64,000 nt of DNA from a bacterium (GTDB lineage Bacteria; JAJVIF01), in the NCBI GenBank assembly GCA_022072165.1, contig JAJVIF010000001.1, positions 1,143,353 to 1,207,352 of the forward strand, in the 5' to 3' direction. The first letter of the stretch is position 1, and every line of letters starts with the position of its first letter. The position numbers and the translations under genes were made by a program. Under the pieces are notes generated by a model. The model had not been told where the DNA came from. It was given only the letters and a program-made list of their open reading frames with translations, and did not search any database. Of this stretch, positions 17,132 through 20,708 are shown piece by piece.

Positions 17132-18766
17132 TCATTCAGCAGCGAACGCGGGGGGCTGCTGGACCAGTTGCCAGCCTCCCCCAGTCACCAGGACCGCTCC
17201 GACATATCCACTCACATCCAGACGCTGCAACAGCCCTTCGCTCCGCTCAGAAATCATCTCAGCCTGCGACTGCTGCGCCGGGTCCAGCGCCTGGAGTGCG
17301 CCATTGGTGACGATGAGCCAGTGGGTCTCTGCCGGGAAGGCCAGGAACCGGACTGTCCGGCCATCAGCCAGCCGCGTGCCGGGGAGGACCCAGGGCTCCA
17401 GCCGATGACGTTGCATCGTGAGGATGGGGTGGTCCGGTGGCGACGATGCCAGCAGCAGGTATTTGTCCCAGATCACCCGATGATTCGGCAGGTAGTACCC
17501 CGCCTGCTTGAAGCTGTCACTCAGGAGCACCAGCGTCTGCGACGAAGGTCCCGCCTTCGGGATGTCATCCACATGGACCACCATCGCCTGGTCGACCATT
17601 CGCAAAAGGGGCCAGCTCAGATCGGTCCGGGGGTCGCCGGTGGCAAAGCGCCAGAGCAGAATCGGTAGCATCAGCGCCAGAAACAGCGCCGCAATCAGGG
17701 GCTGTCGCTGCGTCACCCGGGTGCTACCACAGCCGATAACCAGCGCTACTGATGGGGCATAATCGAGAAAAATCCCCGTGAAGTTCACATGGACGATGAG
17801 GTAGAAGAGCACCCCCGGAAGCACCCACCAGCAGAGGAAACCGAGTGGAATCCGGCTGTCATCCGCGTTACTGACCGACGGCAGTCGCCGAGCCACCGGG
17901 ATCAGCGCCAGGACCACCACCACCGGGATCGGCAGCGCGAAGCCGAGCCAGAAGAAGTCGCGCATCGCCCGCCAGTTCGCGGCAAGCTCCTGCAGCGGTC
18001 CCGACTCGAAGCGTCCGAAGCGGGTCTCGTGCTTGACCCCTTCGGTCTGGATCGCCTGCAGCCATTCCCCCACTCCTCCGGATGCCTGCCAGACCGGGAC
18101 ATACGCCGCCAGCGATAGTCCTGTCAGTACTACGAGTGACAGGTGTTTTTGTCGACCCGGGAGTCCCCACCAGACCCAGGCCAACAGCGGGAGTCCCAGG
18201 ACCAGACTCGGGAGGCGATACGCTCCACCGATCGCGGCTATGACAAACGGCCACCACCAGCGCGGGTCCCCTTCCTGTCGGACGCGCCAGGCGGACCAGC
18301 CAAGCCACGCGAACCAACAGGCACCTGCGGGATAGCTCAGGGCGACCGACCCGTAGTAGAGCGTCAACGGACTCGCCAGCAGCAGGAGTGCCGCGACACC
18401 TCCCGCCAGCACGCCCCCCCAAGCCCGCCCGAGCAACCAGGTCGCCCAGGCCGCGCCCCCAAGCAGCAGCCAGTTCACCAGGAGATACCCGCGATTCGGC
18501 TCTCCGCCCATGATTTTCGTGCCGAGCCAGCCGGATACCACATACGCCGGGTAGCCCGGCGGATGGGGCTGGTGCAGCCGGACATCGAATTGCTCCAGCG
18601 CGAGGGCATACTGCGCGGAGTCCCATCGGGCGAGATATCGGGAGTGACACAGCCACTGGCCACACCACAGGAGGAGCCCAGCGACACCCATCGCCAGCAT
18701 GACCCGCTTCAGCAGCAGACCGTCAGATGGTGGTGTAGCCGCAGTCGGGGGAGACAAGGTCGCCAC
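17132..18766 (-). CDS. GT-C type membrane glycosyltransferase-like protein (DUF2723-like)
   Basis: Predicted 544 residues from a leaderless GTG. There are about 10-11 hydrophobic helices in the first 400 residues, and the C-terminal about 140 residues are soluble. The first periplasmic loop carries W-D-S-A-Q-Y followed by H-P-P-G-Y-P. This resembles the D-S/G-E-F and A-H-P-P-G-Y-P signature of DUF2723 / protein O-mannosyltransferase-like GT-C proteins, where an acidic residue in loop 1 is catalytic. The donor would be a lipid-linked sugar. It is divergent from crcB with only 20 bp between start codons and an overlapping -10. Acceptor unknown. Confidence 0.75.
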   Translation of the reverse strand: MATLSPPTAATPPSDGLLLKRVMLAMGVAGLLLWCGQWLCHSRYLARWDSAQYALALEQFDVRLHQPHPPGYPAYVVSGWLGTKIMGGEPNRGYLLVNWLLLGGAAWATWLLGRAWGGVLAGGVAALLLLASPLTLYYGSVALSYPAGACWFAWLGWSAWRVRQEGDPRWWWPFVIAAIGGAYRLPSLVLGLPLLAWVWWGLPGRQKHLSLVVLTGLSLAAYVPVWQASGGVGEWLQAIQTEGVKHETRFGRFESGPLQELAANWRAMRDFFWLGFALPIPVVVVLALIPVARRLPSVSNADDSRIPLGFLCWWVLPGVLFYLIVHVNFTGIFLDYAPSVALVIGCGSTRVTQRQPLIAALFLALMLPILLWRFATGDPRTDLSWPLLRMVDQAMVVHVDDIPKAGPSSQTLVLLSDSFKQAGYYLPNHRVIWDKYLLLASSPPDHPILTMQRHRLEPWVLPGTRLADGRTVRFLAFPAETHWLIVTNGALQALDPAQQSQAEMISERSEGLLQRLDVSGYVGAVLVTGGGWQLVQQPPAFAAE

Positions 18767-18773
18767 GGGGGAG

Positions 18774-18780
18774 TAGCATA
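18774..18780. promoter_or_regulatory. Shared bidirectional -10 for crcB and the GT-C gene
   Basis: The 7 bp TAGCATA reads TAGCAT on the plus strand (18774-18779), 7 bases before the crcB ATG. It reads TATGCT on the minus strand (18780-18775), 8 bases before the GTG of the GT-C gene. The two hexamers overlap by 5 bp, so both transcripts would be leaderless. On the plus strand GAGACA (18751-18756) at a 17-base spacing is a fair -35; the minus -35 is weak. Confidence 0.65.
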
Positions 18781-18786
18781 CGGCCC

Positions 18787-19185
18787 ATGCCAGCAGGAAG
18801 CGCCATCATGCACTGGATGCTCGTGGCGTGTGGCGGTGCGCTTGGCGCGGTCGCCCGGTATGCAGTCGCGCAATGGCTGCATCCGGACCGTCTCCCGCAG
18901 GCGATTCCCCTGGGGACCCTGGCCGTGAATGTCACCGGGTCAGCGCTCCTTGGCTGGCTCTTCGCGCAGCTCTTCACCGGGATGGAACAGGGGAAAGACC
19001 AGTCACTCTGGTTGCTGTGGGGTGTTGGATTCTGCGGCGCATTCACCACGATGTCGACGTTAAGCCTTGAGACACTGACCCTGATACAGCGCAACCATCC
19101 GACGCTCGCTTTGCTGAACTGGAGCCTGCAAACGCTGCTCTGTCTGGGCGCCGCCTGGGCCGGGTTACTCCTCGGGAAACGTTAG
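18787..19185 (+). CDS. crcB: Fluoride channel CrcB/Fluc
   Basis: Four-helix membrane protein of 132 residues; Fluc works as a dual-topology dimer that exports fluoride. Conserved features: GGALGAVARY near the N-terminus, GTLAVNVTGS in helix 2 (the pore asparagine), and GFCGAFTT in helix 3. The following S-T segment reads TTMSTL where most family members have TTFSTF, so both Phe-box positions are substituted. It starts 7 bases after its -10, so there is no room for a fluoride riboswitch. The 3' end overlaps the convergent dipeptidase gene by 21 bases. Confidence 0.93.
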   Translation: MPAGSAIMHWMLVACGGALGAVARYAVAQWLHPDRLPQAIPLGTLAVNVTGSALLGWLFAQLFTGMEQGKDQSLWLLWGVGFCGAFTTMSTLSLETLTLIQRNHPTLALLNWSLQTLLCLGAAWAGLLLGKR

Positions 19186-20238
19186 CCGACGATCCGCGTC
19201 CTGGGCAGTCGCAGGGAGCACCTGCCGCAGCACCCGGAGCCAGTTGCCTCCTAAAATCGCCTGGATGTCATCGTCGCGATACCCCCGACGCATCAGCGCG
19301 GCGGTGAGATTCGGCAGCGCTGCGACATCCTCCAGCCCGGTGATCGGAATCTCATACCCATCGAAATCACTGCCGATGCCGACATATCCGATTCCGGCAA
19401 TGCTGACAGCATGATCGATGTGGTCGCAGACATCTTCCACACTCAGGCGCAGCGACTTCGCATCGTCATGGGGTCGCATATGCTGCGCGATGAAATCGAT
19501 ACCGATAACCCCACCCGTCGCGGCGATACCCCGTAGAGTCTCATCGGAGCAATTGCGCGGAATGTCCATAAGCTGACGACAGAGTGAGTGCGAAGCGATG
19601 ACGGGCTGTGTGGCAGAAGAGAGGACTTCCTCGACCCCCGGGTCCGCCAGGTGGGCAATGTCGACGAGCATCCCCAGCTGGCGCATTCTGCGGACCACCC
19701 GCCAGCCCGCCTTCGTCAGGCCGCTGGGCTGTGGATTCCCGCAACCGGAGGCGAGTTCGCTGTCGTGATTGTGGGTCAGCCCCACGACCCGGACTCCCGC
19801 CCAATAGAACGCATCGAGGAGCGTGACATCGCCCTGCAATGGTGTGGCCCCTTCGATTGAGAAACAGAAGCCGAGCTTCCCGGACCCCGGTCCGATGCCA
19901 TCCAGATCAGCTACGGAAGCTACCTGTTGTAGCCGACCGCCGGAGCGCATGATGATCCGCTGCCCGGTCGCCAGGAGATCCTGGGCAAAGGCGGTCGCTT
20001 CCTGTCCATGGAACTTCGCAGGGGTCCAGAGCGAGGCAATCTGCAGACTGACACCCCCGGCGATGAAGCGGGGATAGTCGGTATGGCCGGATGACTGTCG
20101 CTCGAAAAAGTCATAGCCCTTGTCCATGACCTCGTAAAACGTGTCGGCGTGGCCATCAATGACCCAGGAGCGCCGATGCAGGGCCAGGGCCTCCTGTGAA
20201 GCATTCGGAAGCGATCCGGCAACTGTGTCAGGACTCAT
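19165..20238 (-). CDS. Membrane-dipeptidase-like zinc peptidase (M19)
   Basis: Predicted 357 residues of the renal dipeptidase family, binuclear zinc enzymes that split dipeptides. Zinc ligands are recognisable: H-A-D in VIDGHADTF, the Glu in SIEGATPL (the bridging position), His in GLTHNHDS and His in ASHSLCRQL. GIGSDFDGYE near the C-terminus carries the conserved Asp. There is no signal peptide, so it is likely cytoplasmic, as for many bacterial members. Its ATG overlaps the TGA of the upstream YHS-like gene (4 bases), so the two are co-translated. It could process peptides imported by the nearby transporter. Confidence 0.93.
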   Translation of the reverse strand: MSPDTVAGSLPNASQEALALHRRSWVIDGHADTFYEVMDKGYDFFERQSSGHTDYPRFIAGGVSLQIASLWTPAKFHGQEATAFAQDLLATGQRIIMRSGGRLQQVASVADLDGIGPGSGKLGFCFSIEGATPLQGDVTLLDAFYWAGVRVVGLTHNHDSELASGCGNPQPSGLTKAGWRVVRRMRQLGMLVDIAHLADPGVEEVLSSATQPVIASHSLCRQLMDIPRNCSDETLRGIAATGGVIGIDFIAQHMRPHDDAKSLRLSVEDVCDHIDHAVSIAGIGYVGIGSDFDGYEIPITGLEDVAALPNLTAALMRRGYRDDDIQAILGGNWLRVLRQVLPATAQDADRRLTFPEE

Positions 20239-20708
20239 GATGTCGGTCCCATCGTGGGTGGCGGCAGGGTGTCGATGTTTTCTTCCGTCACCAGATAGTC
20301 TTCCGGCACCCCGATGGTGTCCGGGTCGGTTTTCGCTTTACGCACAAATTCGATGATGCAGGGGGGACAGCAGAAGTAGTACAGCCGGCCGTTAATCTGC
20401 CAGGTCATGGTTCCCCGGGATCCGGTAATCGGGCAGCGGACATCCCCCTTTTTCGGTGCGGCATGGGTCGTGGCCTCATCTCCGAGCATGGTGCGGGCAT
20501 ACTTCTCAAACGGCGATACATTGCCATTCGCCTCGATGTCCGCCGCAGTGTAAATCCCACCAGGTGTCAGGACTTCCTGGGCCACCAGATCGATTCCCGA
20601 CTGCGGCGCAACTGGGGGGGGCGGCGGGGCAGGACTCAGGAAGAGGCCGATGCCAACTCCCATCCCAATCGCGAGGAGTCCCAGTCCGGCCAGGGGAAGT
20701 GGTTTCAC
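20235..20708 (-). CDS. Membrane-anchored YHS-like cysteine protein
   Basis: Predicted 157 residues from a leaderless GTG. One N-terminal hydrophobic helix (residues 4-26, LAGLGLLAIGMGVGIGLFL) is followed by a proline run, so the rest is probably outside the membrane. Near residues 92-121 lies CPITGS, then W-Q-I-N-G-R-L-Y-Y-F-C-C-P-P-C, which resembles YHS/TRASH-type metal-binding domains (CP-V-C-G ... Y-Y-F-C-C-x-x-C). Four cysteines could bind a metal ion. It is first in a two-gene unit with the dipeptidase. The metal and role are unknown. Confidence 0.72.
   Translation of the reverse strand: MKPLPLAGLGLLAIGMGVGIGLFLSPAPPPPPVAPQSGIDLVAQEVLTPGGIYTAADIEANGNVSPFEKYARTMLGDEATTHAAPKKGDVRCPITGSRGTMTWQINGRLYYFCCPPCIIEFVRKAKTDPDTIGVPEDYLVTEENIDTLPPPTMGPTS

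Follow-up and report, generated by a model that had tools for sequence, protein, structure and literature searches.

Two genes diverge from a very short spacer in the window considered here, by which we mean the whole stretch of 64,000 nucleotides of bacterial DNA that was analysed. A preliminary description of this DNA had proposed that one near-palindromic -10 element between crcB on the plus strand and a membrane protein gene on the minus strand drives both genes, and that both messages are leaderless. The locus raises the question of whether such an element could be read in both directions and, if so, from which start codons the two messages would be translated.

The spacer and its symmetric heptamer

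The furthest upstream start codons that the two frames allow, GTG on the minus strand at 18766 and ATG on the plus strand at 18787, are separated by a spacer of 20 bp (18767-18786) that reads GGGGGAGTAGCATACGGCCC. It contains the near-palindrome TAGCATA, which has the symmetric form TANNNTA (Table 1). The plus-strand hexamer ends 7 nt before the ATG, the minus-strand hexamer ends 8 nt before the GTG, and the two overlap by 5 bp. The coordinates, hexamer positions and overlap given in the preliminary description were all confirmed from the sequence. When both strands were checked, no complete TANNNT other than those in TAGCATA turned up close to either start. The two start codons are merely the most upstream ATG, GTG or TTG of their frames and nothing in the sequence demonstrates their use, so that the leaderless state of the messages is a possibility and not an observation. 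If ATG 18808 (plus) and ATG 18700 (minus) are both used instead, the starts sit 107 bp apart.

Promoters that fire in both directions from a symmetric -10 are known from many bacteria and were reportedly described by Warman et al. in 2021. At such promoters 18 bp is the commonest distance between the two RNA starts (PMC12825309, PMC10268837), and in the published model only a single polymerase binds at any time (PMC12825309). The RNA starts predicted from TAGCATA, 18786 on the plus strand and 18768 on the minus strand, are exactly 18 bp apart, and A-11 of each hexamer pairs with T-7 of the other, the arrangement that defines 18-bp bidirectional promoters. The earlier statement that symmetric -10s are known from divergent promoters is borne out by the recognised TANNNTA form and by this predicted distance. 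TAGCATA thus resembles the described promoters (PMC10268837; PMC12825309) in its TANNNTA, in its 18-bp distance (predicted here) and in that one polymerase binding event would exclude the other. It differs from them in being predicted from the sequence and in that start codons may sit at, or within ∼20-70 nt of, both RNA starts.

Table 1. Positions of the features at the divergent junction, numbered from the first letter of the window.
Feature	Positions	Strand	Remarks
Candidate shared -10, TAGCATA	18774-18780	both	hexamers TAGCAT 18774-18779 (+) and TATGCT 18780-18775 (-)
GAGACA	18751-18756	+	matches TTGACA at 4 of 6 positions; lies 17 bp before TAGCAT
GT-C / O-mannosyltransferase-like membrane protein	17132-18766	-	GTG start; alternative ATG 18700
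Alternative minus-strand start codon, ATG	18698-18700	-	posterior 0.74 from coding statistics and start-codon use
crcB, fluoride channel (Fluc), most likely frame	18808-19185	+	posterior 0.73-0.80; TIGR00494, N-terminal register, PF02537
AGGAAG, Shine-Dalgarno-like	18795-18800	+	7 nt before ATG 18808
ATG, proposed leaderless crcB start	18787-18789	+	posterior 0.08-0.09 as leaderless

Leaderless genes in the host genome

We sampled 2.4 of the 3.26 Mb of the host genome and called genes from coding statistics, leaving upstream signals unused; gene starts are those of our own caller, and the EM posteriors given below take no account of homology. Tabulation of upstream motifs showed that Shine-Dalgarno (SD) cores dominate, while TANNNT ending at -7 to -10, with a peak at -8, was about tenfold over background. 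When a mixture model of starts and signals was fitted by EM in the 2.4 Mb, 62% of genes came out as SD-led, 25% as TANNNT-led and 13% as neither, with spacers of 6-9 nt (peak 7) in the TANNNT-led class. TANNNT shortly upstream of the start is an established signature of leaderless genes (PMC3160421). The signal found here, TANNNT ∼12 bp upstream of ∼25% of starts, is that of the TA-led genes of Zheng et al. 2011, and the same as in Actinobacteria and Deinococcus (PMC3160421). Leaderless starts are consequently not odd in this genome, where about a quarter of the genes are leaderless. One such candidate in the window is the minus-strand gene at 20235-20708, which starts with GTG, matches a TRASH domain weakly and shows a strong leaderless signal with a spacer of 7 and a posterior of 0.99. 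Leaderless usage across the phylum was also considered, and the TANNNT peak was absent in small samples, of ∼110 genes each, from two class relatives of lower GC than the host, G001 (49%) and G002 (45%).

Alignment of the leaderless promoters of the host genome (370 leaderless genes) revealed zero -35 information and only a GG just before the hexamer; the -10 of these promoters can be written as (G)GTAYAMT, followed by C. It had been considered unusual that the -35 regions would lie inside the opposite gene, but this is not odd here, since a -35 signal is missing from the leaderless promoters of the host. For the same reason we dropped GAGACA as the -35 of a plus-strand promoter, and its resemblance to a -35 is probably meaningless.

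Start codons of the two divergent genes

Identification of the plus-strand gene as a true crcB held up against family profiles: its product matches PF02537 with 97.7 bits and the NCBIfam model TIGR00494 with 84.9 bits, above the cut-off of 80.45. The EM posteriors for its start were 0.73 for ATG 18808, 0.15 for ATG 18817 and 0.08 for ATG 18787, and with half the data 0.80, 0.07 and 0.09, respectively. NCBIfam CrcB models align nearly one-to-one with the 18808 form from its first residues, and Ec2-type Fluc chains have an N-terminus about as short, while a start at 18787 would add seven residues that are present in almost no family member. Scans of further contigs returned three CrcB matches (46-47%), which span only residues 29-125 or 36-123 and leave the N-terminus and the spacer uncovered. 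From posterior and N-terminal register alike, ATG 18808 with its own Shine-Dalgarno appears to explain crcB better than a leaderless start at 18787. Unlike the TA-led genes (PMC3160421), crcB has a better SD-led start (0.73 versus 0.08, with the N-terminal register in agreement), and its membership of that class is not clear.

The minus-strand protein itself had no match among Pfam and NCBIfam profiles, nor in a scan of further genome contigs. Relatives 31-33% identical were found in three other genomes of its class, and the GT-C label given to it previously is reasonable because the relative in G002 matches PF11028 (TMEM260-like) and PF13231 (PMT_2). Two lines of evidence disagree about its start. 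The start model favours ATG 18700 (posterior 0.74, mostly without a convincing upstream signal) over GTG 18766 (0.09 as leaderless), whereas homologue N-termini favour a position upstream of 18700: the 18700 form begins straight at the first membrane helix, the relatives carry a basic N-terminal tail before that helix, and the GTG 18766 form provides KR immediately ahead of it. The minus-strand gene may be leaderless from GTG 18766 or may begin at ATG 18700.

These results bear directly on the proposal of a double-leaderless pair, in which one common -10 would give rise to a crcB message beginning at ATG 18787 and a membrane protein message beginning at GTG 18766. The distances of 7 and 8 nt fall within the range of the leaderless class and close to its peak, no -35 is required in this genome, and the basic tail of the relatives favours the GTG for the minus-strand gene. 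Set against this are the low posteriors of both starts (0.08 and 0.09), the N-terminal register of the CrcB family and the scarcity of such pairs, since divergent pairs with starts no more than 30 bp apart make up only 3 of the 266 in the genome. The complete motif of start codon, TANNNTA and start codon (CAY-N6-10-TANNNTA-N5-9-RTG) is likewise not in excess over chance, with 13 occurrences in the 2.4 Mb of the host genome and 16 in order-1 Markov sequence. We consider this reading very improbable. It is probably a mistake to see both messages as leaderless, since 21 bases downstream of ATG 18787 crcB has a better start that is preceded by a ribosome-binding site of its own.

The suggestion that the junction ties fluoride export to a glycosyltransferase gene found no support. 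crcB was not detected in three distant class relatives of the host, and a fluoride riboswitch, sought in the window and in the genome, gave nothing above the cut-off. A DNA search of 40 relatives returned a match only in the organism's own genome.

Symmetric sites and divergent junctions

In the leaderless -10 model of the genome TAGCAT scored 4.7 bits on the plus strand and TATGCT 5.8 bits on the minus strand, values reached by 1.3% and 0.6% of internal starts, respectively, and both hexamers fell in the bottom 12-15% of leaderless genes by -10 score. Such weak scores, together with a complete motif no commoner than in Markov sequence, would fit a heptamer that is no promoter at all, the genes then starting at 18808 and 18700 and their promoters being other weak elements. 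We regard this as unlikely, given that no other complete TANNNT lies within reach and that strict symmetric sites, defined as TANNNTA scoring at least 4.5 on both strands, reach about 25 times the genome-wide density in divergent gaps (0.259 per kb, or 11 sites, in divergent intergenic DNA versus 0.010 per kb). Expressed as a share of strict TANNNT sites, they account for 11/402 at divergent junctions, 5/569 at co-directional junctions (p=0.038) and 4/1641 in coding DNA (p=1e-5), which is ∼3-fold enrichment in divergent over co-directional gaps.

At a looser score cut, coupling at 18 bp was 8.2% in divergent junctions versus 7.0% in coding DNA. We therefore rejected the 18-bp peak of opposed -10s as a sign of selection for symmetry, as the coding and co-directional controls show similar loose coupling, which would be expected if most of it came from the symmetry inherent in the -10 motif. 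The enrichment of strict TANNNTA sites was all that we retained, and as evidence that TAGCATA is a promoter this enrichment is modest. The same self-symmetry, which alone provides 18-bp partners for ∼7% of -10 matches even in coding DNA, makes it conceivable that TAGCATA acts one way and serves one gene, most likely the minus-strand gene with its stronger hexamer, and that its symmetry is incidental. crcB would then be transcribed from another site, such as CATACT at 18607-18612 within its neighbour, which scores 7.3 bits but lies ∼195 bp upstream and misses the first T. This is a credible alternative which we nonetheless doubt, as the ∼3-fold excess of strict symmetric sites in divergent over co-directional gaps also counts against it.

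Somewhat more likely than every rival is a reading in which an ordinary 18-bp bidirectional sigma70 promoter has TAGCATA as its common -10, crcB is translated from 18808 and the minus-strand gene from GTG 18766 or ATG 18700. We favour this tentatively: the symmetry and the positions are observed, while from them we infer transcription and the use of the start codons. RNA polymerase would bind the heptamer in one orientation at a time and start RNA near 18786/18787 on the plus strand or 18768/18767 on the minus strand. The message of crcB would have a leader of ∼21-22 nt that includes AGGAAG and be translated from ATG 18808, and the minus-strand transcript would either be leaderless from GTG 18766 or have a leader of ∼67 nt to ATG 18700. 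Counting against a bidirectional promoter are the weak hexamers, the loose-coupling control and the distance to crcB, since 28 nt between the end of a -10 and an SD-led start is at the short edge of the range in this genome. The likelihoods we attach to these readings are judgements combining the results and not computed values.

A parallel with mixed layout occurs elsewhere in the genome, at C1:1617576-1617633, where a symmetric TATGCTA, with hexamers scoring 7.8 on both strands, lies in a 58-bp gap, 9 nt before a leaderless start, and the opposite predicted RNA start is 37 nt before an SD-led start. It is a stronger candidate for a bidirectional promoter of the mixed type, serving one leaderless and one SD-led gene.

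At 19 of the 266 divergent junctions each gene had a -10 at leaderless spacing and the starts lay no more than 60 bp apart, versus 0-3 junctions in controls with one or both spacing windows shifted. One of the 19 is the crcB junction itself, through the low-posterior pairing of GTG 18766 with ATG 18817, leaving 18 that are independent of it. Other divergent leaderless junctions are better instances of double-leaderless pairing than crcB. At C1:630567/630591 (FolD and an unassigned protein, gap 23 bp) and C1:703331/703360 (gamma-glutamyltransferase and YbeY, gap 28 bp) both genes are apparently leaderless and the hexamers share a TA dinucleotide, which corresponds to the 23-bp geometry. At C1:737407/737445, pabA (GTG) and pabB (ATG) are separated by a 37-bp spacer with TANNNT 8 nt before each start, and the N-terminus of PabA confirms its GTG start to within two residues; this pair is a candidate for two genes that encode subunits of the same enzyme and are each read from a leaderless promoter facing the other.

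It may be, although we put this forward with reserve, that this deep-lineage bacterium, represented with its relatives by four genomes, systematically sets divergent leaderless genes opposite each other across spacers of no more than 60 bp, a few with overlapping -10s and the crcB junction being the tightest at 20 bp. If so, the entire intergenic region would consist of two start codons and one or two promoters that have a -10 only. If both messages at crcB were leaderless, two promoters and two start codons would fit into its 20-bp spacer, close to the minimum for gene spacing, and a single substitution would affect the two transcripts alone. The wider result is more useful: a little-known lineage in which ∼25% of genes are leaderless, with -10-only promoters and closely spaced divergent pairs, offers many cleaner cases, such as pabA/pabB, for testing competition at facing promoters.
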